A stretch of DNA of 64,000 bases. It comes from Faunimonas pinastri (GTDB lineage: Bacteria > Pseudomonadota > Alphaproteobacteria > Rhizobiales > Afifellaceae). Of this stretch, positions 18,808-32,080 are shown in pieces. The stretch spans positions 62,001 to 126,000 of the forward strand of contig NZ_FOFG01000009.1 of the NCBI RefSeq assembly GCF_900110915.1. Reading direction: 5' to 3'. The notes beneath the pieces are model-generated. The model did not search any database. It was not told the DNA's origin and saw only the letters and a list, made by a program, of their open reading frames with translations. Both the position numbers and the translations under genes were made by a program. Position 1 is the first letter of the stretch; every line of letters begins with the position of its first letter.

Positions 18808-19001
18808 CGAATTCTCCGCCGTTCACCCAGGAGCGGGTCTACGCCTTTGGAGGCGGGGGTGGATTATCAGAGGTTAATCACGGGATCGGACGCCGCCGCG
18901 CATCGTCAGCGCTGCCAAAGCGGGCGCAGGCGGGGCGGCAAGTTCCCGGATGTGCTATGAATATCCTACAAACGACCCCATCGGACGGAACGGAATTCAT
19001 C

Positions 19002-20240
19002 ATGCGCGACGTTCTCGTTCTCGGTGCCGGCGCGGTGGGCGTCTCGAGCGCTCTTCACCTGCAGAAGCGGGGCTGGTCGGTGGTGCTCGTCGACCGTCTC
19101 GGGCCCGGACGGGCTACCAGCTACGGCAATGCCGGGATCATCCAGAGCGAGGCCGTCGAGCCCTACGCAATGCCGCGGAGCTGGGCGGCTCTTTGAGACA
19201 TGGCCGCGAGACGAAGCAACGACGTGCACTACACCCTCGACGCCTTGCGCGCCCAGGCCGGGCCGCTGCTGCGATACTGGTGGCACTCGGCGCCGTCGCG
19301 TCACCGGTCGATCTCGTCGGCCTATGCCAGCCTTATCCGCAGGGCCACGGCGGAGCACGGCGACCTGATCGGGGAAGCCGGTGCCGAGGCGCTCGTTCGA
19401 TCCGGCGGGTTCCGCATCCTGCATCGCACGCAAGCGGCCATGGAGGATGCGATCCGGGAAGCGGAGCGCCTGAAAGCCTCCTACGACGTTCCCTTCGCCG
19501 CCTTGTCCGCGACCGAACTGCGTGTCGCGGAGCCCTCGCTGAAGGTGACCGGGGCCGGCGCGATCCATTGGACGGAGCCCATGTCGGCGAGCGATCCGGG
19601 CGGCCTGGTGGAAGCCTATGCGAGCCTTTTCCGTCGTTGCGGTGGCGAAATCCGCGTTGCGAACGCCGCGACCTTGCGTCGGGCGGGCAATGGCTGGAGC
19701 GTCCAGACCACGGATGGGGCGATCAAGGCCGAGGAAATCGTGGTGGCGCTCGGTCCCTGGTCGCCCGACCTGCTCCGGCCGCTCGGCTATCGTATCCCGA
19801 TGATCCGCAAACGCGGATATCACCGGCACTGGTCCAGCCCTCAACCGCTTCGGCTGCCGCTTCTCGATGGGGCGAACGGCTATGTGCTCGCCCCCATGGC
19901 GAAAGGGCTGCGGATCACCACGGGGGCGGAGCTGACGAAATTCGACGCGCCCGCCACCCCGGTGCAGCTGCGCCGCGCGGAGGAGGCCGCCGCCGAACTC
20001 CTGGATCTCGGCGCCCCGGTCGAGGCCGAGCCCTGGTTCGGCACGCGTCCCTGCATGCCGGACATGCTGCCCGCGATCGGACCGGCGCCGCGCCACAAGG
20101 GGCTCTGGTTCAACTTCGGACACGGCCACCAGGGCTTCACCCTGGGTCCGGCAAGCGGCCGGCTGCTGGCCGAGCTGATGTCGGGCGAAAAGCCCTTTGT
20201 CGCTGCCGAACCGTTCAGCCCGCGACGCCTGCCGGCCTGA
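19002..20240 (+). pseudogene. FAD-dependent D-amino-acid dehydrogenase-like gene with an in-frame TGA
   Basis: A single reading frame encodes a DadA-family flavoprotein of ~412 codons, interrupted by TGA at 19194-19196. Before it are the Rossmann motif (LVLGAGAVGVSSALHLQKRGW) and SYGNAGIIQSEAVEPYAMP. After it, still in the same frame, come NDVHYTLDALRAQAGPLLRYWWHSAP, the substrate and FAD domains, and the closing FNFGHGHQGFTLGPASGRLLAELM. Because both halves share a frame, this is a point nonsense change rather than an indel; TGG (Trp) to TGA fits the family pattern at this position. The downstream piece alone (from ATG 19200) lacks the FAD-binding motif. Start chosen at 19002; an upstream ATG at 18957 is possible. 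The intact enzyme would oxidise a D-amino acid or hydroxyproline-like imino acid. Confidence 0.75.
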
Positions 20241-20308
20241 GGACACTTCGCGGGATCACACCGCCAAAAGGATTTCGTCGGGATCGCCGGGCATAGGAAC
20301 CAGAAAGC

Positions 20309-21214
20309 ATGGACATCCACGACGCCGCCGCGACGGCCCGTCTTCTCGACTATCCCAGCCTGATCGAAACGCTCGCGACCGTGGTCGAAGAATACGGCCG
20401 GGGCGAGATCGTGAGCCCCGAGCGCCTCGTGGTGCCGACCGGCGACCGACGCGGGCTGCTGCTGTCCATGCCATGCGACGCGCGCGATATCGTGGCGCAC
20501 AAGCTGCTGACGATCTATTCCGGCAACCCGGCCTCCGGCCTTCCCGCCATCCAGGGACAGGTGACCGCGTTCGACGCAGCGAACGGAACGCCGCTCTTCT
20601 GCCTGGACGGCCCGACCGTCACCGCCCGGCGCACCGCCGCGATCACGCTGCTCGGCATCCGGCATCTCGCCCCGTCCGCACCCCGCTCCGTGCTGCTGAT
20701 CGGCACGGGCGCGCAGGCGCTCGGCCACGTCGAGGCGCTGCTGGCGATCTATCCCGAGGTTTCGATCCGCGTTCGTGGTCGATCGGCCGCCAGCGCGCGG
20801 GTTTTCTGCGAGCGTGCCGGCGGCCGGCACGGGCAGGTGGTGCCGGACAGCACGGCTGCGGGACCGGTCGATGTCGTCATCGCCGTCACCAGCAGCAAGA
20901 TCCCGGTCTATGACGAGGAAGCCGACGCCGCCCGCCTCGTCGTCGGGGTCGGCGCCTACCGCCTCGACATGATCGAAATCGGAGCCAGGCTGATCCGGGG
21001 CAGCCAGGTCTATGTCGACGATCCCATCGGCGCACCGGTGGAAGCAGGCGATATCGCTGCCGCCGGCACGGACTGGAGCACTGTGCGGCCGCTCGCCTCG
21101 GCACTGTCCGGACAGTCCGACTTCGCCCGGCCCATTTTCTTCAAGAGCGTCGGCTGCGCCGCCTGGGATCTCGCGGCCTGCCGGGCCGCAAGAACGGCGC
21201 TGACGCGGCTTTGA
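20309..21214 (+). CDS. Ornithine cyclodeaminase/mu-crystallin family protein, possible cyclic imino-acid reductase
   Basis: 301 aa. The NAD(P)-binding motif is mid-protein (VLLIGTGAQALGHVEALL), preceded by the family stretch KLLTIYSGNPASGLPAIQGQVTAFDAANGTPL and followed by DVVIAVTSSKIPVYD. Members of this branch include Delta1-pyrroline-2-carboxylate/Delta1-piperideine-2-carboxylate reductases, which reduce cyclic imines formed by D-amino-acid or hydroxyproline dehydrogenases. The immediately upstream gene is such a dehydrogenase (interrupted), 68 nt away on the same strand, which fits that pairing. Ornithine cyclodeaminase activity is less likely. The exact substrate is inferred. Confidence 0.8.
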   Translation: MDIHDAAATARLLDYPSLIETLATVVEEYGRGEIVSPERLVVPTGDRRGLLLSMPCDARDIVAHKLLTIYSGNPASGLPAIQGQVTAFDAANGTPLFCLDGPTVTARRTAAITLLGIRHLAPSAPRSVLLIGTGAQALGHVEALLAIYPEVSIRVRGRSAASARVFCERAGGRHGQVVPDSTAAGPVDVVIAVTSSKIPVYDEEADAARLVVGVGAYRLDMIEIGARLIRGSQVYVDDPIGAPVEAGDIAAAGTDWSTVRPLASALSGQSDFARPIFFKSVGCAAWDLAACRAARTALTRL

Positions 21215-21397: not shown

Positions 21398-22552
21398 TCA
21401 GGACGTGGCGGTGACACCCCTCAGCACCAGCTCTTTCACCCGGAGCCGCGTCGCGCCGGGTTCCCAGGCGAAGCGGATCAGGTCGGCGGAAGCCCCCACC
21501 TCGATGCGGGCACGCCCGCCGACGAAGCGGCCGGGATTGACGGTCGCCAGCCGGAGAGCGTCCGCGAGGGAAAGATCGCCCATCCGCATCGCGATCGGAA
21601 TATCCTCGATCAGCGGACGCGCCGCGCCGGCGAGGTAGGGCGTGCCGGCAATCCCGAGGCGACCGTCTTCCCGCAATTCCACGTCGCCGCCGATCGGCTG
21701 GCGATACGTACCGGGCGGCAGACCTCCGAGCGCCGCCGTATCGGACACCAGCACCGCGCGTTCCAGCCCCTTGGCGCGGAGCATCGCCCTGAAGGCGTCG
21801 GCGGGAAGGTGATGGCCGTCGGCAATGAAGGAGGCGGTGAGGCGATCATCGGCAAGCTGCGCCCAGATGAGGTTGGGGTGGCGCGGCAGGGTAGCCGCAA
21901 CGCCGTTGCCGAGATGGGTGGAAAGCGCCGCGCCGGCATCCACCGCCGCGCGGATCTCCTCCGGGCCCGCATGCGTGTGCCCGATGGCGACGTGCACCCC
22001 CTCCCCCGTCAGGGCTCGGATATAATCGGGAGCTTCGGGATGATGCGGCGACAGCGTCACCATGCCGACCAGCCCGCCCGAGGCTTCCTGCCATCGGTGG
22101 AATTCGGCCAGATCCGGCGGGCGGACGTGCTCGCGCGGATGGGCCCCGCGCGGTCCGTCCTCGGGGGAGATATGCGGGCCCTCGACATGGACGCACGGAA
22201 TGGAATGCGCCAGGTCGGGATCGCTTTCGCGTGCCCGCGCGATGGCCCGCAACGCCGCGCCGATCGAGCTTTCGGACGCCGTGATCAGCGTCGGCAGGAA
22301 GGTGGTCACGCCGTTGGCGCGCAACACGTGCGCCAGCGCCTTCACCGTCTCCGGAAGGAGACCGGGGGCGTTCAGGTCGTGCCCGGCGAAACCGTTGACC
22401 TGCAGGTCGATCAGCCCCGGCCCCAGCCAGTCCTCCGCGTCGGACGGCCCCTCGCCGATCGCCGCGATCATCCCGTCCGCGACGGTGACAGCGAGCGGGA
22501 GACCGGAAGCCGGGTCCCTGCCGGTGATGGTGCGGGCCAAACCGCTTTCCAC
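21398..22552 (-). CDS. nagA: N-acetylglucosamine-6-phosphate deacetylase-like amidohydrolase
   Basis: 384 aa from the GTG at 22552; longer starts run into the upstream gene. It is an amidohydrolase barrel with metal/catalytic residues in HVEGPHI (Glu124), GHTHA (His192), THLGNG (His213) and VSDTAALGG (Asp271). The family removes the acetyl group from GlcNAc-6-P. The loop after His213 reads HLGNG where characterised NagA proteins have H-L-[FY]-N-A-M, which contacts the sugar phosphate, so this may be a variant subfamily with a different substrate. It is the last gene of the amino-sugar operon, 4 nt after the NagB-like gene. Confidence 0.8.
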   Translation of the reverse strand: MESGLARTITGRDPASGLPLAVTVADGMIAAIGEGPSDAEDWLGPGLIDLQVNGFAGHDLNAPGLLPETVKALAHVLRANGVTTFLPTLITASESSIGAALRAIARARESDPDLAHSIPCVHVEGPHISPEDGPRGAHPREHVRPPDLAEFHRWQEASGGLVGMVTLSPHHPEAPDYIRALTGEGVHVAIGHTHAGPEEIRAAVDAGAALSTHLGNGVAATLPRHPNLIWAQLADDRLTASFIADGHHLPADAFRAMLRAKGLERAVLVSDTAALGGLPPGTYRQPIGGDVELREDGRLGIAGTPYLAGAARPLIEDIPIAMRMGDLSLADALRLATVNPGRFVGGRARIEVGASADLIRFAWEPGATRLRVKELVLRGVTATS

Positions 22553-22556
22553 CTGG

Positions 22557-23294
22557 CTAGCCCCGGCCCGTCGGCGCGGAGGCGGCGTCCAGATAGAGCG
22601 TCGCGTCCGCGTGACCACGCAGCGCGCTCGCGGGACAGGCTGTCGAAACCGGCCCTTCCAGGGTCTGCCGCACGGCCTCGCGCTTGGCCTTGCCCGGCAC
22701 CACGCAAAAGATCTTCGCGGCCCGAAGCAGGCGCGGAACGGTAAGGGTCACGGCCCGCTCGGGCACGTCGTCGAAGCTCGCGAAGCAATCGTCATCCACC
22801 TGCTGCTGCCGGCAGACATCGTCGAGCTCCACGATCTTCACGTCCAGCGGATCGCCGAAATCGGCCACCGGCGGATCGTTGAACGCGATATGCCCGTTCA
22901 CGCCGATGCCCATGCAGACGATGTCGATGGGAGCGGCGGCGAGCAGCGCCGCGTAGTTCCGCACGGCCTGCGCCGGGTCCTGTCCGGGGTCGATGAGGTT
23001 GACCGTACCGAAGGGGAGCCGGTCGAAGAGGTGCTCGCGCAGCCAGAGCGCGAAGCGCTGCGGCGCATCCTCGGGCAAGCCGATATATTCGTCCATGTGG
23101 AAGGCGGTGACGCGGCTCCAGTCGATGCCGGGCTGGGCGCGCAGGGCTTCCAGCATGTCGGACTGGCTCGGCGCGGCCGCGAAGACCATGCGGACGCGGT
23201 CCTGCCGGTCCAGCAGCGAGCGAAGCGTCGTGGCCACGTCGGCTGCGGCGGCGCGGCCCATCTCGGCCCGTGTCGGAGAGATCTGGAAATTCAT
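22557..23294 (-). CDS. nagB: Glucosamine-6-phosphate deaminase-like protein
   Basis: 245 aa with the NagB catalytic core: FHMDEYIGLP (Asp68, matching the general base) and GIGVNGHIAFND (His135, Asp140 in place of the usual Glu). The family converts glucosamine-6-P to fructose-6-P and ammonia. The N-terminal phosphate-binding loop G-x-x-x-GGTP of classical NagB is replaced by FAAAPSQSDM, so the protein is a divergent member. Its start overlaps the upstream epimerase stop by 4 nt. With the NagA-like protein it suggests catabolism of an amino sugar, possibly a non-standard one. Confidence 0.8.
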   Translation of the reverse strand: MNFQISPTRAEMGRAAAADVATTLRSLLDRQDRVRMVFAAAPSQSDMLEALRAQPGIDWSRVTAFHMDEYIGLPEDAPQRFALWLREHLFDRLPFGTVNLIDPGQDPAQAVRNYAALLAAAPIDIVCMGIGVNGHIAFNDPPVADFGDPLDVKIVELDDVCRQQQVDDDCFASFDDVPERAVTLTVPRLLRAAKIFCVVPGKAKREAVRQTLEGPVSTACPASALRGHADATLYLDAASAPTGRG

Positions 23295-24631
23295 TCTGGG
23301 CCGTTATCCCTGGGTTCGTTGGTCGTATCGGGAGATGACGCCGGTTGCGGCGGCAATCGTTCGAGGATCAGCAGCAGCGATCGCGCGATGTGGAACGGGT
23401 CCTTGACGGGCAGCGCCACGGTTCTGGTCAACGGAGCGCCCTGCCGGTCGCGGATCTGGATCCACTCCTCTCCCGGGCGGCCCGGAAACGTCGCGGAGAT
23501 GTAGCGGGAAAGCCGGTCGTACCAGGCGCCCACATCCTCGCGACCGGTTTCCAGATGCAGGAGCAGCATGGTGTAGAGCGCCTCGGCGTGCGGCCACCAA
23601 AGCTTGGTGTCCCAGGTTTCCTGCACCAGCCGCTCGTAGCGGTCGTCCACCAGCCGTCCGCGCGGTTCGCCGCCGTCGCGGTCGACATAGCGAAACAGCC
23701 CGCCCGCTTCCGTGTCCCAGCCGATGGTGGCGGCATGGACGGCGATATCCGCCAGCACGTCCGGCTTGAACAGCGCGTGTTGCGCGAAAGCCCAACGGTC
23801 GCGCACCATCTCGCCGGCATGCAGGAAAAACCAGCAGGCCTCCAGCACATGACCGGGCGTGCGATGCCGGGCCAGCAGCGTATCCGCAAGCTCCGGATCG
23901 GCCGGCTTCATCTCGAAGACGTCCGCCCCCTGCAGGAACTCGCCCTCGATCTGCCCGATCGCGTCGATGACCGTTCCGGCGGAAGCGTGCGATCCCGTTG
24001 CGGCATGGACCTCCGCGCCCACGCCCACCAGGATCATCGGCAGGGCAAAGCTGCCAAAGCCCGTCGGCACGGGATAGGGCTCCGTGCGCGCGCGGCCGGC
24101 GAGGATGCGGTCCCGCGCGTTCTGGAGGAGACGGTCGGCCGCCTCGCCCCAGCGGTCGCTCCCGGTTTCCGCCGAAAGAGCGGCGAAGCCGAGCGCCACG
24201 AAGAGATCGGCGAAGACGCTGGTATGAAGACCGCCGCCGACCTCCGGCTCCTTCGGCATTCCGTCTTCCGCCAGCAGGAACGCGGTGCTGCCATCGGGCA
24301 GCAGCGCATGGCTCTCCAGGAAGAGCGCCGTCCGTTCCGCCCGCTCCAGGCATTTCGCACCGTCGAGATCGACGAGGCCCAGCCGCGCCGCGCGCGACAG
24401 GCGCGCCATCAGCCAGATCCACCGCCCCTGCGACCAGGTGTACTTGTCGCGCGAGAGAAGGCGGGAATTGTCGTTCGACCAGCAGGTGAAGACACCGCCC
24501 CGCGCGTCGTCCGGCCCATGCCGGAGCCACCAGGCGAGCACGTCTTCCGTCAGGTGACGGGAGACGCCGGCCCGCAGCTTCTCAAGCTCTGCCGTCGTGC
24601 CGAAATCAGGCACGGGCGGCGGCCAGTGCAC
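23291..24631 (-). CDS. AGE family sugar epimerase/isomerase
   Basis: 446 aa from a GTG at 24631, overlapping the symporter gene by 26 nt. It belongs to the N-acylglucosamine 2-epimerase superfamily, an (alpha/alpha)6 barrel. Conserved stretches include WSQGRWIWLMARL, the catalytic-region histidine in HRTPGHVLEACWFFLHAGE and WDTKLWWPHAEALYTMLLL. Family members interconvert ManNAc/GlcNAc, mannose/fructose/glucose or cellobiose. Next to NagA/NagB-like enzymes and a sugar symporter, an N-acetylmannosamine to N-acetylglucosamine step is reasonable but not proven. Confidence 0.83.
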   Translation of the reverse strand: MHWPPPVPDFGTTAELEKLRAGVSRHLTEDVLAWWLRHGPDDARGGVFTCWSNDNSRLLSRDKYTWSQGRWIWLMARLSRAARLGLVDLDGAKCLERAERTALFLESHALLPDGSTAFLLAEDGMPKEPEVGGGLHTSVFADLFVALGFAALSAETGSDRWGEAADRLLQNARDRILAGRARTEPYPVPTGFGSFALPMILVGVGAEVHAATGSHASAGTVIDAIGQIEGEFLQGADVFEMKPADPELADTLLARHRTPGHVLEACWFFLHAGEMVRDRWAFAQHALFKPDVLADIAVHAATIGWDTEAGGLFRYVDRDGGEPRGRLVDDRYERLVQETWDTKLWWPHAEALYTMLLLHLETGREDVGAWYDRLSRYISATFPGRPGEEWIQIRDRQGAPLTRTVALPVKDPFHIARSLLLILERLPPQPASSPDTTNEPRDNGPE

Positions 24632-26138
24632 GCTGCTCTTCCTCCGGCATTTCCGTGCCGATGGAGGCGATCAGCGCGTCGGAGGCGGGCTTGTGCCAGG
24701 GATCGATCAGGCCGATCACCACGTAGCTCACCATCGAGCAGAGCACCGGCCCGGCAACCGTGATGGTGGTCGTCCAGTCCGGGTTGAGCGCCTTGATCTC
24801 GCCGGCGAAGACATACTTGATCAGCACGAAGGCGAGAATGCCGAGCGCCCAGGAGCCGATGGCCGCGGAGGGACCGCTGCGCCGGAACGCCGGCAGCAGG
24901 CCGAAGAGCATGGGGATCGCGATGGGTCCGACCAGCGCGCCGAACCAGAGGATGATCAGGCCGAGCACGCCGCCGAAGTTCTTGGCGGAAAGCGCGATCA
25001 CCATGGACAGAGCGATGAAGACGAAGGTGCTGATGCGGCCGATCCGGAGTTCCGTCTTTTCCGACACGGTACGGATCCCCTTCCAGACCGCCGGCAGGAT
25101 GTCGCGGGTGACCACGGCGGAAACGGCATTGGCGTCCGAAGAGGTCATCGCCATCGTGTGCGCGAACATGCCGGCGAGCACGAGGCCGATCAGGCCGCGC
25201 GGCAGAAGGGTTTCCGTCAGGATGGCATAGGATTGCTGCGGCTCCGCGAGGTTCGGCAGCAGGATCGGCGCGGCCCACATCGGGAAAAACAGGATCAACG
25301 GCCAGACCAGATAGAGCGCGGCGGACAGCAGCGCCGCCTTGCGGGCCTGCGAACCGTTGGGCGCGGCGATGAAGCGCTGCGCCAGGTTCCACGTGCCGCC
25401 ATTGTAGGACAGCGTGTTGATCAGGAGATAGACCAGCGCGAAGACCGCCGTGTACTGGCCGTTGAAGAGGTGCGAATGCCCTTCCGGCAGCTGGTCCCAG
25501 ATCGTGAACACCGAACCGAAACCGCCGAGCCTGGCGGCAGCCGCGATGAACATCACGATGCCGGCGACGAGCTGGATCAGGAACTGGCTGAAATCGGTCA
25601 TCGCATCGGCCCAGAGGCCGCCCACCGTCGCGTAGATCAGCGTGACGCCGCCGGTCAGCAGCACGCCCCAGACCAGCGGCACGCCGGCGAAGACGTTGAG
25701 CAGCAGCGCCGTCGCGGTCCATTTCGCGCCGACGTCGAAGACCTTGAGGGCGCCGCCGCTCCAGGCCAGCACCTGCTGGGTCGGCACGTTGTAGCGGGTC
25801 GTCAGATATTCCAGGGGAGAGATCACGTCGAGCCGCTGGCGCAGCCGCGCCCAGCGCGGCGCGAACGTAAAGGCGCCCACCACCATGGCGATGGTGATCG
25901 TGCAGGCCCACCAGACATAGATCGTGAAGCCGGCCGTATAGGCGATCGCGGCATAACCGACGAAGACGGCGGAGCTGTAGCCCGACATGTGATGCGACAC
26001 GCCGGACAGCCACCAGGGCATCGCGCCACCGGCGGTGAAGAAGTCGCGCGCGTTCTTCACCTTGCTCCGCGCCCAGATACCGACGCCAATCATCAAGATG
26101 AAATACGCCGTCAGCACGGCCCAATCCAAAATGGACAT
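24606..26138 (-). CDS. Sodium:solute symporter (SSS family), probable amino-sugar/sugar uptake
   Basis: 510 aa with about 13 membrane helices, GGAGGGG directly upstream of the ATG. The N-terminus has DWAVLTAYFILMIGVGIWA and the family motif region GGxxMPWWLSGVSHHMSGYSSAVFVG, as in SGLT and sialic-acid symporters. It would couple sodium entry to sugar import across the inner membrane. As first gene of a four-gene operon (symporter, epimerase, NagB-like, NagA-like) with a divergent LacI regulator, it most likely imports the amino sugar that these enzymes degrade. It brings the sugar in unphosphorylated, and no kinase is encoded nearby. Confidence 0.88.
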   Translation of the reverse strand: MSILDWAVLTAYFILMIGVGIWARSKVKNARDFFTAGGAMPWWLSGVSHHMSGYSSAVFVGYAAIAYTAGFTIYVWWACTITIAMVVGAFTFAPRWARLRQRLDVISPLEYLTTRYNVPTQQVLAWSGGALKVFDVGAKWTATALLLNVFAGVPLVWGVLLTGGVTLIYATVGGLWADAMTDFSQFLIQLVAGIVMFIAAAARLGGFGSVFTIWDQLPEGHSHLFNGQYTAVFALVYLLINTLSYNGGTWNLAQRFIAAPNGSQARKAALLSAALYLVWPLILFFPMWAAPILLPNLAEPQQSYAILTETLLPRGLIGLVLAGMFAHTMAMTSSDANAVSAVVTRDILPAVWKGIRTVSEKTELRIGRISTFVFIALSMVIALSAKNFGGVLGLIILWFGALVGPIAIPMLFGLLPAFRRSGPSAAIGSWALGILAFVLIKYVFAGEIKALNPDWTTTITVAGPVLCSMVSYVVIGLIDPWHKPASDALIASIGTEMPEEEQRALAAARA

Positions 26139-26179: not shown

Positions 26180-26217
26180 ATGCAATCGGTTTCCGGTCAA
26201 CATGCAACCGGTTGCAT
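26180..26217. promoter_or_regulatory. LacI-type operator (perfect palindrome plus a second degenerate site)
   Basis: ATGCAACCGGTTGCAT at 26202-26217 is a perfect 16-base palindrome with the central CG typical of LacI-family operators. A related sequence, ATGCAATCGGTTTCCG, starts 22 bases earlier at 26180, about two helical turns away. Both lie in the gap between the symporter operon and the divergent LacI regulator, so one protein could control both directions. Confidence 0.85.
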
Positions 26218-26294: not shown

Positions 26295-27278
26295 GTGAAC
26301 CCGACGATCCAGCAGGTTGCGGAAGCCGCGGGCGTTTCCCGTTCCACCGTGTCCCGCGCCTTCACCCGGCCGGACATGCTGAACCCGGAAACGGTCGCGC
26401 TGGTGCGGGACGTCGCGGCGCGGCTCGGCTACGTGCCGAGCCAGGTCGCCCGTGCCCTGTCCACCGGCCGGTTCGGCAACATCGCGCTTCTGGTGCCCGA
26501 TGTCGGCAATCCGTTCTTTCCCCCCTTGATCCGTGCGGTGGAGAAGCAGGCGGACCTGTCCGGGGCTTGCGTGTTTCTCGGCAATTCCGACGAGAACCCC
26601 GAGCGGGAGAACGTCCTCCTGAAGCGGCTCTCCGGGCAGGTCGACGGCTTCATCCTCGCGTCCTCACGCCTCTCGGATGCGGAAATCCGGGCCCATGCCG
26701 CGCGACGGCCGGTGGTGCTGGTGAACCGCGACATCGCGGGCCTCGGGCGCGTCCTGATCGACAGCGCCCAGGGCGTCGGGGACGCGATCCGGCATCTTCA
26801 CGAACTCGGGCACCGGCGCATTGCCTATGTCAGCGGACCGTCGGCATCGTGGTCCAACCAGCAGCGATGGTCGGCCGCATCCCGGGGGGCGCGGGATCTC
26901 GGGCTGGATCTGGCGCTGATAGAGGGCGAGCAGCCTTCCTTCGAAGGCGGTGCGTCGGCCGCGCGGCTGGCAGTGGACACGAGGGTCACCGCTGCGATCG
27001 CCTTCGACGATTCCATGGCGCATGGCCTGCTCGCGGGCTTCTCTGCGGCGGGTGTCGACGTGCCGGGCACGATCAGCGTGATCGGCTGCGACGATGTGCT
27101 GGGCGCCAGGACCTATCCGCCGCTGACGACCATCTCCTCCGGCGCCGACGATGCCGGCCGCCTCGCGACCGACATGCTGATGGGCCTCCTGGGGGGAAGT
27201 CAGGCAGGTGAAACCCTGCGTCTGCCCACGACCCTGATCGTCCGCGCGACCACCGCGATCGCCCGCCAGGGCTCGTAG
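26295..27278 (+). CDS. LacI family transcriptional regulator
   Basis: 327 aa from a GTG start. The helix-turn-helix is at the extreme N-terminus (TIQQVAEAAGVSRSTVSRAF, residues 4-23), followed by a hinge helix (QVARALSTGRFGNIALLVPD) and a periplasmic-binding-protein-like effector domain. The gene is divergent from the amino-sugar operon with a palindromic operator between them, so it most likely represses that operon until an amino sugar or its derivative binds. Confidence 0.9.
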   Translation: MNPTIQQVAEAAGVSRSTVSRAFTRPDMLNPETVALVRDVAARLGYVPSQVARALSTGRFGNIALLVPDVGNPFFPPLIRAVEKQADLSGACVFLGNSDENPERENVLLKRLSGQVDGFILASSRLSDAEIRAHAARRPVVLVNRDIAGLGRVLIDSAQGVGDAIRHLHELGHRRIAYVSGPSASWSNQQRWSAASRGARDLGLDLALIEGEQPSFEGGASAARLAVDTRVTAAIAFDDSMAHGLLAGFSAAGVDVPGTISVIGCDDVLGARTYPPLTTISSGADDAGRLATDMLMGLLGGSQAGETLRLPTTLIVRATTAIARQGS

Positions 27279-27297: not shown

Positions 27298-28239
27298 TCA
27301 CGATCTCGCGGGTTCGCTGGCGCGGAAGCTTTCGTCGAGCGCCCTGTTCACCGCATACATCCCCGTGGTGCGGAACTCCGTGGGGCTGGTGCCGAAGGTA
27401 CGGCGGAAGGCCTTGGCGAAGTAGTTGGGATCGGAAAAGCCGCAGGCGATCGAGATCGCCTTTACCGGGAGGTCGCCGCTCTCCAGCAAGCGGGCGGCCC
27501 GGCGCATGCGCTCGTTCAACACGTATTCGGCGGGGGGAATGCCTTCGGCCGCGGTGAAGATGCGGGTGAAATGGGCGCGACTGAAACCGGCGAGCCGCGC
27601 CAGCGCTTCCACGTCGAGCGGTTGGTCGAGATGCTCCCGGACGTAGCCCCGGATGGCGTCGAGAGTGCCCGCGTCCTCGCCGCCGGCGCTGTCGGAGTGG
27701 GGAGCGAGCAGGTCGTCGTAGAGCGCCATCAAAGCCTGGTAGGCGAGCGACGAGGCCGTGCCTGGCCGCTCCGGGAGATCCTGACCGGCTCTTTCGAGGA
27801 GCCCGTGACAGCTCGCGGCAAGAAGCCCGATCGCCTCTTCCGAAAGACGGAAAACCGGACCGCGAACATCGAGGATCGTCTTTTGCAGCCGCAGCGCCTC
27901 CTGACCGTACATGGAAATCCAGAAGAACTCCCAATGGTCCCCTTCCGCCAGCCAGTAGCGGTGATCGTGCGGGATCATCACGAGCATGGTGTCGCCAGCC
28001 TCGATCCGGTGCAGGCGACGGTCGTAGGTGAGATGGCCCCGCCCGCTCAGGGTGTGCTGCAGGACGGTGAAGGGCGTCTCGCCCCGCTTGCGGCCGCTCC
28101 AGTCGTAGCTCTGGCTGGTGACGCGGTCGTAGCCGAAATTGGTGGGCATGGCGTGCAGCCGGTGGCGTCCGCGCGGCAGCGAAAGCGTCTTCATCACCGG
28201 GCCGTTCCGCGTCAGGGCATCGAGCACAAAATCACCCAT
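27298..28239 (-). CDS. AraC family regulator of the alpha-galactoside locus (AgpT-like)
   Basis: 313 aa. An N-terminal cupin-type sensor domain (HTLSGRGHLTYDRRLHRIEAGDTMLVMIPHDHRYWLAEG) is followed by a C-terminal pair of helix-turn-helix motifs (ALARLAGFSRAHFTRIFTAAEGIPPAEYVLNERM and VKAISIACGFSDPNYFAKAFRRTFGTSPTEFR). It is divergent from the alpha-galactosidase/transporter operon, the position of the AraC-type activator agpT in the comparable Sinorhizobium locus. It probably activates the operon in response to an alpha-galactoside. Its 3' end faces the LacI gene 19 nt away. Confidence 0.85.
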   Translation of the reverse strand: MGDFVLDALTRNGPVMKTLSLPRGRHRLHAMPTNFGYDRVTSQSYDWSGRKRGETPFTVLQHTLSGRGHLTYDRRLHRIEAGDTMLVMIPHDHRYWLAEGDHWEFFWISMYGQEALRLQKTILDVRGPVFRLSEEAIGLLAASCHGLLERAGQDLPERPGTASSLAYQALMALYDDLLAPHSDSAGGEDAGTLDAIRGYVREHLDQPLDVEALARLAGFSRAHFTRIFTAAEGIPPAEYVLNERMRRAARLLESGDLPVKAISIACGFSDPNYFAKAFRRTFGTSPTEFRTTGMYAVNRALDESFRASEPARS

Positions 28240-28418
28240 ATCAGCACAATTCCGCTCTAGAACTTCGGCTGCTCCAATCGGTATTACTCTTTCAAACGTC
28301 GATGCCGCGAGTGAATTTCACCCGCGCTCCGACCAAAGGCGAGCGTTTCTCGCCAGAGCCGCCCGCCGGAGCCGATCGCTTCAGGAACGAGGGGCCGAAG
28401 GGAAGGGAGAAGGTTCGG
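28240..28418. promoter_or_regulatory. Divergent promoter region between the AraC regulator and the alpha-galactoside operon
   Basis: 179 bases with the most AT-rich stretch at ~28243-28310. A perfect 11-base dyad, GTGAATTTCAC, is at 28311-28321. The open frame starting at 28302 would add ~39 poorly conserved residues to the first GH4 enzyme and is rejected in favour of the ATG at 28419. Confidence 0.45.
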
Positions 28419-29912
28419 ATGTCCTCAGGGATCAAGATCGCCATTATCGGCGCGGGCAGCGTCGGGTTCACCAAGAAGCTCGTGACCGACATTCTCTGCG
28501 TGCCGGAGCTGCAGGATATCGAGTTCGCGCTGACCGACATCAACGCGCACAACCTCGATCTCGTCCGGCAGATCGTCGAGCGGATCGTCTCGGTGAACGG
28601 GCTGCCGACGCGCGTCACGGCGACGACGGAGCGTCGCGAGGCGCTGGAAGGCGCGCGCTACATTATCAACTGCACGCGGATCGGCGGACTGGAGGCCTAC
28701 CGCCACGATATCGAGATCCCGCTGAAATACGGCGTCGACCAGTGCGTCGGCGACACGATCTGCGCCGGCGGCATCCTATACGGCCAGCGCAACATCCCGG
28801 TGATCCTCGACTTCTGCCGGGACATCAAGGCGGTCGCGGAGCCGGGCGCCAAGCTCCTGAACTACGCCAACCCCATGGCGATGAACACCTGGGCCGCGCT
28901 GGAATATGGCGGCGTCGATACGATCGGCCTCTGCCACGGCGTGCAGAACGGCTGGCGGCAGATCGCCAAGGCGCTCGGCGCGGAGCGCAAGGAAGACGTC
29001 GACATCTTCTGCTCCGGCATCAACCACCAGACCTGGTACCTGGACATCCGCTATGGAGGTCGGAAGATCTCGAAGGACGAACTGGTCGAGGCCTTCGAGC
29101 GCCATCCCGTCTTCAGCCAGCAGGAGAAGGTCCGCATCGACGTCCTGAAGCGCTTCGGCTTCTATTCCACCGAGTCCAACGGCCATCTCTCCGAATATCT
29201 GCCGTGGTATCGCAAGCGGCCGGGCGAGATCCTGAACTGGATCGATTTGTCCGACTGGATCCACGGCGAGACCGGCGGCTATCTCCGCTACACCACGGAA
29301 AGCCGGAACTGGTTCGAGACGGACTTCCCGCAGTTCCTGGAGGAGGCCGGCCAGCCGATCGACGCTTCCCGCCGCACCGACGAGCATGCGAGCTGGATCC
29401 TCGAAGCGCTGGAAACCGACCGGGTTTATCGCGGGCATTTCAACGTCCGCAACAACGGGATCATCACCAACCTGCCGGCCGACTGCATCGTGGAAAGCCC
29501 CGGCTTCGTCGATCGGTTCGGCCTCAACATGACGGCCGGCGTCACCCTGCCGGAAGCCGCGGCCGCGACCTGCATCGCCTCCGTCAACGTGCAGCGCATG
29601 TCGGTCCACGCCGCGATGACCGGCGACGTGGAACTCCTGAAGCTGGCGGTGCTGCACGATCCGCTGGTGGGCGCCGTCTGCTCGCCGGAAGAGGTCTGGG
29701 CGATGGTGGACGAATTGCTCGTGGCGCAGGCGGAATGGCTGCCGCAATATGCCGAGGCGATCCCGGCCGCCCGCGAGCGCGCCAGCCGCTCGACGGTGCA
29801 GACCACCGACTGGGCCGGCGCGGCGCGCCAGCGCGTGCGCTCCGTCTCCGAAGTGCGCGAGGCGACCTCCCGAAAGAAGGAGGCGGCCCTCGGCCAGATG
29901 CCCGGAGCCTGA
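28419..29912 (+). CDS. agaL1: GH4 family alpha-galactosidase-like glycosidase (AgaL1-like)
   Basis: 497 aa from the ATG at 28419. GH4 enzymes use NAD+ and a divalent metal to cleave glycosides by an oxidation-elimination route. The Rossmann motif is at the N-terminus (IAIIGAGSVGFTKKL, GAGS 11-14). Metal ligands are Cys172 in GLCHGVQNG and His202 in CSGINH, and NYANPM (148-153) is the substrate loop. The C-terminal ~45 residues extend beyond typical MelA. Its place as the first gene of an operon with an oligosaccharide importer and a second GH4 gene matches agaL1 of the Sinorhizobium agp locus. The intracellular substrate is probably melibiose- or raffinose-type sugars. Confidence 0.87.
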   Translation: MSSGIKIAIIGAGSVGFTKKLVTDILCVPELQDIEFALTDINAHNLDLVRQIVERIVSVNGLPTRVTATTERREALEGARYIINCTRIGGLEAYRHDIEIPLKYGVDQCVGDTICAGGILYGQRNIPVILDFCRDIKAVAEPGAKLLNYANPMAMNTWAALEYGGVDTIGLCHGVQNGWRQIAKALGAERKEDVDIFCSGINHQTWYLDIRYGGRKISKDELVEAFERHPVFSQQEKVRIDVLKRFGFYSTESNGHLSEYLPWYRKRPGEILNWIDLSDWIHGETGGYLRYTTESRNWFETDFPQFLEEAGQPIDASRRTDEHASWILEALETDRVYRGHFNVRNNGIITNLPADCIVESPGFVDRFGLNMTAGVTLPEAAAATCIASVNVQRMSVHAAMTGDVELLKLAVLHDPLVGAVCSPEEVWAMVDELLVAQAEWLPQYAEAIPAARERASRSTVQTTDWAGAARQRVRSVSEVREATSRKKEAALGQMPGA

Positions 29913-30016
29913 GGACGACGGGAACGACGACGAGAGGCCGGCAACGTCCGGCCTCCGGGACAACAGAGCTGCCGAATGGCAGCCGGCCGGACATCGGCGC
30001 AATGGGAGGGAAGACG

Positions 30017-32080
30017 ATGATGCATTGGAGGACGACGGTTGCAGCCGTCGCGTGTCTCGGTCTGTGGTCGGCGGGCGTTGCCCGCGCGCAGGAGCTGAAA
30101 GGCCCGGTGCCGGTGCCGGCCGGCAAGTCGCTGCAGAAGGGCGAGCGGACGCAGGTCGCCTATGACAAGCTGATGCAGATCAAGGCGCTGCCATCCTATT
30201 CCGAGCCGGACTGGGTCAAGGCGCTTGTCGACCAGGGCAAGCTGCCGCCGGTCAAGGATCGTCTCCCCGCCAAGCCCATCGTCGTCGACACTTCATCGGT
30301 GGAGGGAACGGGCGTCTATGGCGGCGTCATCCGCCATGTGTCCGGTGCGCGCCCGCAAGGCTGGAACTGGATGGCCGGCAACATCCTCGCCTGGGGCGGC
30401 GTGGAGGAGATCGAAAGCCAGTGCCTCGTCCGCCTCGCTCCGGTCTGGATGCTGACGCCGGAAAAATCGGAGCCGCTGCCGCAGCTGGCGACGCATTGGG
30501 AATGGTCCGATGACGGCCACGCGCTCACCATGCATCTGCTGGAAGGCGCGAAGTGGTCGGACGGCCAGCCTTTCGGCGCCGACGACGTGATGTTCCTGTG
30601 GAACGACAACATGGGCGATCTCAACGTTCCGGCCTGGGGACGGCCCGAGGCGTTCGGTGCCGGCACGACGCTGGAGAAGGTCGACGACAACACCATCCGC
30701 TGGCACTTCAAGGAAAAGAATCCGGCGACGACCCTCTATCAGATGGGTTTCCAGAAGCTCTGCCCGGGTCCGGCGCACATCCTGAAGCCGCTGCATCCGA
30801 AGTACAACAAGAGCGCGACCTACCAGAGCTACATCAACGCCCTGAAGCCGGAGAACACGCCGGTCGTGTCGATGGGGCCGTGGACCGTCACGGAATACAA
30901 GCCGGACCAGCTGATGGTCATGCGGCGCAACCCGTATTTCTACGAGGTGGACGAGAAGGGCAACCAACTGCCCTACCTCGACGAGGTGCAATACAAGCTT
31001 TCCACGTGGGAGGACCGGACGGTCCAGACCGTCGCGGGCTCGGCCGACTACGCCAACATGGAAGATCCGTCGATCTACCTGGAATCGCTGCGGCAGGCGA
31101 AGAACCCGGACTTCCCCGACAAGATCATCTGGGGCGCGCGAGCGCTCGACTGGTCGGTGCTGCTGAACTATTCCACGAATTGCGGCGTGCAGAACGATCG
31201 CGACAAGGCGATCCGCAACCTCAACCGGACGCTGGATTTCCGCCGGATCATCACACAGGGGATGGACCGCGAAGCGATCGGCCAGAGCCTCGTGCGCGGG
31301 CCGTTCATCACGCCCTTCCCCGGCGGGCTGCATCTGGAATCCGACTTCGGCCAGCCGGACATGGCGGTCTATTATCCGTATGACCTTGCAGGCGCGAAGG
31401 CGGCGCTGGCCAAACTCGGCTTCAAGGATACCGACGGCGACGGCATCGTGAACTGGCCGAAGACCGCCATGAGCGGCCCTCTGGCCGGGCAGAACCTGCA
31501 GATCAACCTGCTGTACACGACGCTCTACACGACCGATTCCAATGTCGCGCAATCCGTGGTCTCCATGATGCGGGATCTCGGCGTCTCCATCCTGCTGCAG
31601 CCGAATTCGACGGAGCTGGAGAACACCATCGGCACCTGCCAGTGGGACTGGATGGTCCGCCGCATCGACCATGACGCGCAGGCACCGCTGCTCTACCTCG
31701 ACCGCATCGCGCCGCTGGCGGCGAACAATCCGGAATGGCACCACGGCACGGCGCAGGAGAACCAGAACCTCCTCCCGTTCGAGAAGCAGCTGGTGGACAT
31801 CATCGGCCAGATCCGCACGGAGGTCGATCCGGCCAAGCGCAACGCCCTGCTGCGCGATTACGACAAGGTGGCGACGGAGAACGTCTATCAGGTCGGTCTT
31901 GTCGCCGTTCCCGCCGCGATCCTGATCAACAAGCGCTTCCACAACGTGCCGCCGGGCACGCCGGTGCTGGCCTATGGCTGGGGCGAGGATGCCTCGATGC
32001 GCGAGCGGTTCTGGGTGGCCAAGCAGGATCAGGGCAAGGTGAGCGAACTCGCGCCGAAGACTCTGCCGGGCGTGAAATAG
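30017..32080 (+). CDS. agpA: Alpha-galactoside ABC transporter substrate-binding protein (family 5, AgpA-like)
   Basis: 687 aa from the ATG at 30017, which has GGGAGGG six bases upstream. A Sec signal peptide ends at GVARA. The mature protein is a large cluster C (SBP family 5) binding protein of the oligopeptide/dipeptide class: LATHWEWSDDGHALTMHLLEGAKWSDGQPFGADDVMF is the family signature. At almost 690 residues it is longer than DppA/OppA (~540), as expected for the oligosaccharide-binding branch that includes AgpA. It would bind alpha-galactosides in the periplasm for the permeases encoded next. Confidence 0.9.
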   Translation: MMHWRTTVAAVACLGLWSAGVARAQELKGPVPVPAGKSLQKGERTQVAYDKLMQIKALPSYSEPDWVKALVDQGKLPPVKDRLPAKPIVVDTSSVEGTGVYGGVIRHVSGARPQGWNWMAGNILAWGGVEEIESQCLVRLAPVWMLTPEKSEPLPQLATHWEWSDDGHALTMHLLEGAKWSDGQPFGADDVMFLWNDNMGDLNVPAWGRPEAFGAGTTLEKVDDNTIRWHFKEKNPATTLYQMGFQKLCPGPAHILKPLHPKYNKSATYQSYINALKPENTPVVSMGPWTVTEYKPDQLMVMRRNPYFYEVDEKGNQLPYLDEVQYKLSTWEDRTVQTVAGSADYANMEDPSIYLESLRQAKNPDFPDKIIWGARALDWSVLLNYSTNCGVQNDRDKAIRNLNRTLDFRRIITQGMDREAIGQSLVRGPFITPFPGGLHLESDFGQPDMAVYYPYDLAGAKAALAKLGFKDTDGDGIVNWPKTAMSGPLAGQNLQINLLYTTLYTTDSNVAQSVVSMMRDLGVSILLQPNSTELENTIGTCQWDWMVRRIDHDAQAPLLYLDRIAPLAANNPEWHHGTAQENQNLLPFEKQLVDIIGQIRTEVDPAKRNALLRDYDKVATENVYQVGLVAVPAAILINKRFHNVPPGTPVLAYGWGEDASMRERFWVAKQDQGKVSELAPKTLPGVK

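Follow-up and report, generated by a model that had tools for sequence, protein, structure and literature searches.

N-acetylglucosamine 6-phosphate (GlcNAc-6-P) is processed in E. coli by the products of nagBA, where the gene of the deacetylase NagA adjoins that of the isomerase/deaminase NagB and where the roles of the catalytic residues of both enzymes are known. Three further described systems bear on the locus reported here, namely NagS, a GlcNAc-6-P dehydratase of Streptomyces, the AGE family of N-acyl-D-glucosamine 2-epimerases, the substrates of which are free sugars, and the hexuronate route, in which UxuB and UxuA lead fructuronate towards 2-keto-3-deoxygluconate (KDG). An operon from Faunimonas pinastri is here compared with these systems. 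It lies in a stretch of 64,000 nucleotides (contig NZ_FOFG01000009.1, positions 62,001 to 126,000), called the window below, and is transcribed on the minus strand in the order symporter, AGE-type epimerase, NagB-like protein and NagA-like protein, with a LacI gene reading divergently. This arrangement had been put forward in a preliminary description of the window and was borne out by the reading frames.

On balance we lean, by a narrow measure, towards an operon that breaks down a non-phosphorylated N-acetylated 2-amino-2-deoxy sugar with no kinase at the front of the pathway. The symporter would import the free sugar, the AGE protein would change the configuration at C2 from the manno to the gluco type, the NagA-like enzyme would take off the acetyl group and the NagB-like enzyme would open the ring, isomerise the sugar and release ammonia to give a free 2-ketose, while LacI would govern the operon through one operator. 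This reading is favoured because the changes in the NagB-like protein run through its whole family, kinases are rare near such proteins, the SIS proteins of related operons are without two phosphate serines and the predicted operator is unique in the host genome. A literature search aimed at the pathway or module found no description of it, preprints and most subscription papers being outside its coverage, and suggests that a route of this kind on never-phosphorylated amino sugars, as predicted from sequence, is not yet characterised. The NagB-like and NagA-like proteins and their relatives are referred to as variant NagB and variant NagA, and the features of the locus are as follows.

21398 to 22618, minus strand: variant NagA, an amidohydrolase of the HLG-N-[GA] subfamily; listed open reading frame (ORF), start unsure (P0001 = 21398-22525)
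21902 to 21916, minus strand: HLGNG motif of variant NagA (P0001 residues 204-208)
22557 to 23294, minus strand: variant NagB, a NagB-like isomerase/deaminase with the NagB fold
23163 to 23180, minus strand: AAAPSQ loop, residues 39-44 of variant NagB, at the site of the canonical phosphate loop
22875 to 22877, minus strand: Asp140 of variant NagB, at the position of E. coli Glu148; Asp in 80 of 80 relatives
22800 to 22811, minus strand: RQQQ, residues 162-165 of variant NagB, part of an altered lid with two extra residues
23291 to 24631, minus strand: AGE-type N-acyl-hexosamine 2-epimerase, matching a solved GlcNAc 2-epimerase
24606 to 26138, minus strand: SSS sodium:solute symporter, top solved match 5nv9
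26202 to 26217, strand not applicable: palindromic operator ATGCAACCGGTTGCAT, between the symporter and LacI genes
26295 to 27278, plus strand: LacI-family regulator, 53-60% identical to the LacI of 14 of the 80 variant NagB loci

The operon shares with nagBA the enzyme superfamilies, the adjoining deacetylase and isomerase/deaminase genes, the catalytic Asp72 and His143 of NagB and, in NagA, the residues for metal binding and catalysis. Unlike nagBA, it has a rebuilt NagB loop and lid, Asp in place of Glu148 and HLG-N-[GA] in NagA, and it contains a free-sugar symporter and an epimerase with no kinase or phosphotransferase system (PTS) gene. Pfam and NCBIfam scans returned the expected superfamilies, with NagA, NagB, AGE and the symporter all scoring below the curated NCBIfam cut-offs. 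Variant NagB reached 107.8 bits against TIGR00502 (cut-off 236.9) and 122.7 bits against its best model, NF001684 (cut-off 326), and variant NagA 191.5 bits against nagA (cut-off 225.65). The AGE protein aligned along its full length to solved AGE chains, the best being a GlcNAc 2-epimerase (E 1.5e-34), whereas its NCBIfam score was far below the cut-off (148.4 versus 600 bits). The top solved match of variant NagA was a GlcNAc-6-P deacetylase (E 1.1e-37) and that of the symporter was 5nv9 (E 1.2e-20); for variant NagB the nearest solved proteins were glucosamine-6-phosphate (GlcN-6-P) deaminases.

The variant NagB subfamily

Genome contigs were scanned for relatives of the window protein, and the best 80 of at least 580 stretches encoding one, at 52-68% identity, were analysed. 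These 80 span Pseudomonadota, Bacillota, Bacteroidota, Acidobacteriota, Chloroflexota, Actinomycetota and Ignavibacteriota. The window protein had been claimed to lack the GGTP phosphate loop and to carry Asp140 in place of Glu, and both claims held. In the alignment AAPSQ stands at the site of the E. coli GGTP loop; A39, A41 and S43 are found in 80/80 relatives, P42 in 79/80 and A40 in 76/80, and A39, A41, S43 and Q44 are invariant in 46 aligned sequences. Asp replaces the catalytic Glu148 of E. coli in all 80, the lid carries an insertion of two residues together with R162, Q164 and Q165 (80/80 each), and E. coli Asp72 and His143 are likewise conserved throughout. E. coli Asp141 is Asn (Asn133) in every relative, which is not diagnostic, as Asn is also present in the top solved match 2bkv and in all 14 canonical-type NagB of the window's order. 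An AlphaFold2 model (mean pLDDT 95.4) gave NagB-type proteins as its 26 best Foldseek matches, of which 6nbg bears the title hypothetical protein. Variant NagB formed one group in a quick NagB tree (86 rows, SH-aLRT 97), and the window protein fell in a 24-row group (SH-aLRT 100) of Alphaproteobacteria and Acidobacteriota with one betaproteobacterium and one actinomycete.

A sister NagB subfamily in the same order combines an ATGASQ loop with the FNDP and RxQQ signatures of variant NagB; the canonical-type NagB of the order (14/14) have ATG, a variable residue and then T or S, together with FNEP. The register of the loop is unsettled, MAFFT having placed the variant Pro opposite E. coli P45 once and opposite G43 in another alignment, and the G43 register is favoured because the ATGASQ loop of the sister subfamily bridges both loops. 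In a simulation study of S. mutans NagB (PMC8369159), Lys194, Thr38 and Ser37 contact the phosphate, Thr38 and Ser37 by their backbone nitrogens, while Arg127 acts via water and Arg159 aids delivery. Aligned to the contacts given there, variant NagB keeps the Lys, has Ser at Thr38 and, in the favoured register, places Pro, which is without a backbone NH, at Ser37. The Arg127 position is V or E in 76/80 relatives, and no Arg is found at the Arg159 position.

Two other readings of variant NagB were ruled out. Degenerate enzymes were rejected because the signature residues are fixed across phyla. A 6-phosphogluconolactonase was considered, several variant NagB being so called in plasmid records and the public names being either that or GlcN-6-P deaminase. 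It was discarded as the window protein scores 77.1 bits against an NCBIfam pgl cut-off of 124.45, its best fold matches are NagB and the base Asp of NagB is present in 80/80 relatives.

Partner enzymes and the search for a kinase

A NagA-like gene is present in 73 of the 80 variant NagB loci, at most 100 bases from the variant NagB gene in 46 of the 73 (in L032 both lie in one open frame). The HLGNG motif, pointed out earlier as a departure from canonical NagA, is real, since all 49 close relatives have HLG-N, the next residue being G in 45 of them and A in the other 4. The residues for metal binding and catalysis (E131, H195, H216 and D273) are conserved in 49/49. The argument about phosphate that had been drawn from the motif proved weak. 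Phosphate contacts of human AMDHD2 given in its published description (PMC8970586) are Asn235, Ala236, His242* and Arg243*, and alignment equates Asn235, Ala236 and Arg243* with E. coli Asn219, Ala220 and Arg227. Variant NagA has Gly for Tyr218 (49/49) and for Ala220 (45/49), and it retains Asn219 and Arg227 in 49/49. As these two residues are kept, variant NagA is not evidence against an anion at C6, and either a phosphate or a carboxylate would fit its predicted site. The Arg227 position is Lys in 6/6 NagA-like partners of the sister NagB and D, N or E in 5 of 23 distant NagA-like partners of variant NagB.

Matches of at least 200 bits in the variant NagB loci were found for SIS proteins (20/80), a ceramidase-like protein (22/80), AGE (17/80) and SSS symporters (20/80). 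The ceramidase-like protein is short (~430 residues, N-terminal part of PF04734) and a regular member of these operons, for example at L016:8662-9960 and L197:18571-19833. In eight Paenibacillus loci (L011, L027, L028, L029, L030, L038, L052 and L059) a xylose-isomerase-like TIM-barrel protein and a Gfo/Idh protein replace AGE and SIS.

The SIS protein is homologous to NagS, matching chain 9eol with E 1.2e-38. According to the published account of NagS (PMC12680351), phosphate is contacted by Ser54, Ser119 and Ser121, and four residues, H53, R64, E94 and D179, are essential. Where aligned to NagS, the SIS protein retains these four residues and Ser54, and Asn and Tyr take the places of Ser119 and Ser121; N[AS]YGIN is found in 13/13 aligned SIS proteins. 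The same account places NagS near MurQ, which prompted the idea of a peptidoglycan substrate (N-acetylmuramic acid, MurNAc) with SIS as etherase; this was dropped as it leaves UxuA and UxuB, described below, unexplained. It further reports that a distant Paenibacillus NagS homologue (25.7%) is inactive on GlcNAc-6-P, a protein that may or may not belong with the SIS proteins linked to variant NagB.

The frequency of ceramidase-like and SIS genes, together with the Gfo/Idh and TIM-barrel proteins of Paenibacillus, would suit another sugar derivative, for instance one that bears another N-acyl group or an additional substituent, supplied by such accessory enzymes. The window operon contains neither a SIS nor a ceramidase-like gene and neither is needed for the core reactions, and we regard this explanation as improbable.

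That the operon is without a kinase had also been claimed, and none was recognised among its proteins in the Pfam and NCBIfam scans; the claim does not extend to the genome, which holds a BcrAD/BadFG-type kinase gene on contig C28. The host genome (4,196,045 bases, 99.11% completeness) has a single variant NagB match and one other NagA, 33% identical and canonical (THLFNAM), on C28, where it adjoins a SIS-type deaminase and the BcrAD/BadFG-type kinase; another ORF there looked GntR-like by eye. Ordinary GlcNAc use therefore appears to have its own genes. A genome-wide search for kinases, as proposed earlier, gave 9 matches to ROK, 6 to BcrAD and 12 to PfkB, not all of them above cut-off.

Of the 80 variant NagB loci, the 70 that span 10 kb or more were searched for kinases with profiles of the ROK, BcrAD and PfkB proteins of the host genome. 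ROK ORFs judged to be regulators (>345 residues, HTH-type N-terminus by sight) were left out of the count, as were fragmentary ROK ORFs in L022 and L050. A kinase-type ORF was found in 5 of the 70 (L006, L019, L040, L068 and L073). For comparison, 33 NagB loci (13 + 20) were fetched, of which the eight with canonical NagA, all mutually related, served as control operons of the order. Seven of these eight (L158, L159, L160, L164, L165, L172 and L180; not L162) have a ROK ORF of ~285-325 residues within the 18-kb stretch. Kinase-type ORFs occur in 11 of the 33 loci in total, and L188 and L189 add long ROK ORFs that are possibly kinases with a wrong start.

These results have to be weighed against the conventional explanation, in which the sugar is epimerised and then phosphorylated by a kinase elsewhere, for example the BcrAD protein of C28, so that variant NagA and NagB use 6-phosphates. 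Several observations pull in its direction and away from a free sugar. Lys208 is retained in 80/80 variant NagB, and variant NagA keeps the Asn and Arg whose human equivalents contact phosphate in the AMDHD2 account cited above. Arg172 is lost in variant NagB, but at this position, as at the one aligned with S. mutans Arg159, Ala stands in 5/14 canonical-type NagB of the order, and the Arg127 position varies among the same 14 (R, L, I, E, H, K). Since the Arg172 and Arg127 positions vary in canonical-type NagB, the distinctive changes are limited to the loop, Asp140 and the insertion of two residues in the lid. The point from the SIS proteins is weakened, as Ala at Ser54, Ser119 or Ser121 of NagS has small effects in that study (PMC12680351). 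A symporter and an AGE protein are not diagnostic of a non-phosphorylated substrate. The kinase scan leaves FGGY and APH-type kinases outside its profiles, and the host genome does hold the BcrAD kinase and several ROK proteins. In Edaphobacter a ROK kinase-type ORF (L040:11906-12823) lies 6 bases after the variant NagA gene, the only locus with direct adjacency, and could encode a fructokinase or a hexosamine kinase; the Thermoactinomyces cluster (L019) also contains a ROK kinase-type ORF. Finally, only 4 of 25 NagB loci without canonical NagA (L181, L186, L187 and L190) have a kinase-type ORF, and the absence of a kinase nearby is therefore not specific.

The conventional explanation is countered in turn by the BcrAD kinase belonging to an operon that has a canonical NagA and a SIS deaminase of its own, by the lack of a second operator site in the host genome, by the family-wide fixation of the loop, Asp140 and lid changes and by SIS partners without two of the phosphate serines. 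It is considered unlikely. The variant route on a non-phosphorylated sugar, as originally suggested, stays the best-supported reading of the sequence evidence; its support is only partial because variant NagA keeps its Asn and Arg, variant NagB keeps Lys208 and the symporter and epimerase are undiagnostic.

Operator, possible product and meaning of the proposed route

LacI probably controls the operon via the single predicted operator. Among 17 other LacI gaps the exact 14-base core is present in 14, with one change in L145 and L149 and no site in L033. In the host genome ATGCAACCGGTTGCAT is the sole site at up to 2 mismatches; the search thus found no second site and hence no co-regulated kinase, the case that had been named as contradicting the route, and at that sensitivity no kinase elsewhere in the genome is controlled through the predicted operator. 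Nearly all of the 17 other genomes have two sites in the variant NagB cluster. Sites outside the cluster are single and mostly at 2 mismatches; the one in G206, which adjoins a sister-type NagB, is perfect. The sister NagB (ATGASQ) is linked to a window-type LacI operator in L149 (genome G290), where it occupies the usual place of variant NagB, and in L154 (genome G206), where it stands at a second site.

Several Rhizobiales relatives with the window-type operator have an operon ending in UxuB and UxuA. The annotated operon of Nitratireductor rhodophyticola begins with variant NagB, SIS, variant NagA, a ceramidase-like protein, an ABC transporter and a hypothetical protein at the AGE position, and ends with UgpC, a mannitol dehydrogenase family protein (UxuB type) and mannonate dehydratase UxuA; the variant NagB operon of G206 has the same UxuB/UxuA end. 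In A. tumefaciens CFBP6624 variant NagB, variant NagA, an ABC transporter, UxuA and UxuB are consecutive, and in Ancylobacter an ABC transporter comes after a sister NagB, the next genes, UxuA and UxuB, being on the opposite strand. By position, UxuA lies in or adjoining the cluster in 7 of 53 genomes (L005, L009, L010, L015, L021, G206 and L051), the contigs of G260 and G282 ending too near the operon to judge whether UxuA comes next. In the Rhizobiales operons that end in UxuB and UxuA the ketose is therefore probably fructuronate and the sugar N-acetylglucosaminuronate or N-acetylmannosaminuronate.

For the window operon a uronate product is less certain. An N-acetylhexosaminuronic acid would be epimerised by AGE, deacetylated and deaminated to fructuronate, which UxuB and UxuA would take towards KDG, with the C6 carboxylate lying at the phosphate site; we put this form forward tentatively, as a possibility short of an expectation. 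UxuB/UxuA genes close several related operons, whereas the window operon has neither, and the host proteins lie on other contigs (UxuA at C28:642362, 53%; UxuB at C28:133068, 52%, and C34:46025, 40%). No UxuA hit was obtained at E 1e-20 in 12 of 53 variant NagB genomes, including L012 and L073 with the symporter-AGE layout, and four plasmid records (Devosia neptuniae, Microvirga, Martelella and Ponticoccus), the gene tables of which are incomplete, list no UxuA nearby. In L208 UxuA is followed by a Gfo/Idh protein and in L209 only the Gfo/Idh protein is present. All but the first of these points tell against the route as drawn.

The genomes without a UxuA hit agree better with a neutral sugar, in which free ManNAc or GlcNAc (or GalNAc) would be epimerised, deacetylated and deaminated to fructose (or tagatose), to be phosphorylated by a fructokinase elsewhere, for which the 12 PfkB and 9 ROK matches of the host genome offer candidates. 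GH20 hexosaminidase-type genes near variant NagB in Bacteroidota relatives point the same way: Spirosoma has variant NagB together with a beta-N-acetylhexosaminidase and a major facilitator superfamily (MFS) transporter, and two Bacteroidota loci were confirmed to encode GH20 domains. The residue before the catalytic Asn (residue 132) is Glu in 62/80 variant NagB, which suits an uncharged C6, but Val in the window protein and 14 relatives, mostly Alphaproteobacteria, and Glu is found there in one canonical-type NagB (L135) as well. The Glu/Val split tracks phylogeny and alone fixes no substrate. The Arg retained by variant NagA at the C6 site, and the occurrence of UxuA or UxuB-UxuA in operons with the window's LacI operator, speak against a neutral hexosamine, and for the window operon we hold it doubtful. 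The common denominator across lineages is a non-phosphorylated sugar, whose C6 group may differ between lineages.

Two further groups of genes flank the locus. Beside the LacI gene, at 27298-32080, an AraC regulator is divergent from a GH4 glycosidase, which exceeds one NCBIfam alpha-galactosidase cut-off and is followed by an oligopeptide-type binding-protein-like ORF, in what is a separate sugar operon. At 18950-21214 a FAD-dependent-oxidoreductase-like ORF precedes a Delta1-pyrroline-2-carboxylate reductase, which scores above one NCBIfam cut-off.

The public names of variant NagB, GlcN-6-P deaminase and 6-phosphogluconolactonase, are perhaps wrong both times. If true, a kinase-free amino-sugar route would correct these names and the metabolic models built on them in many phyla, and it would account for the use of free amino sugars or amino uronates by bacteria of the soil and the gut and by those associated with plants.

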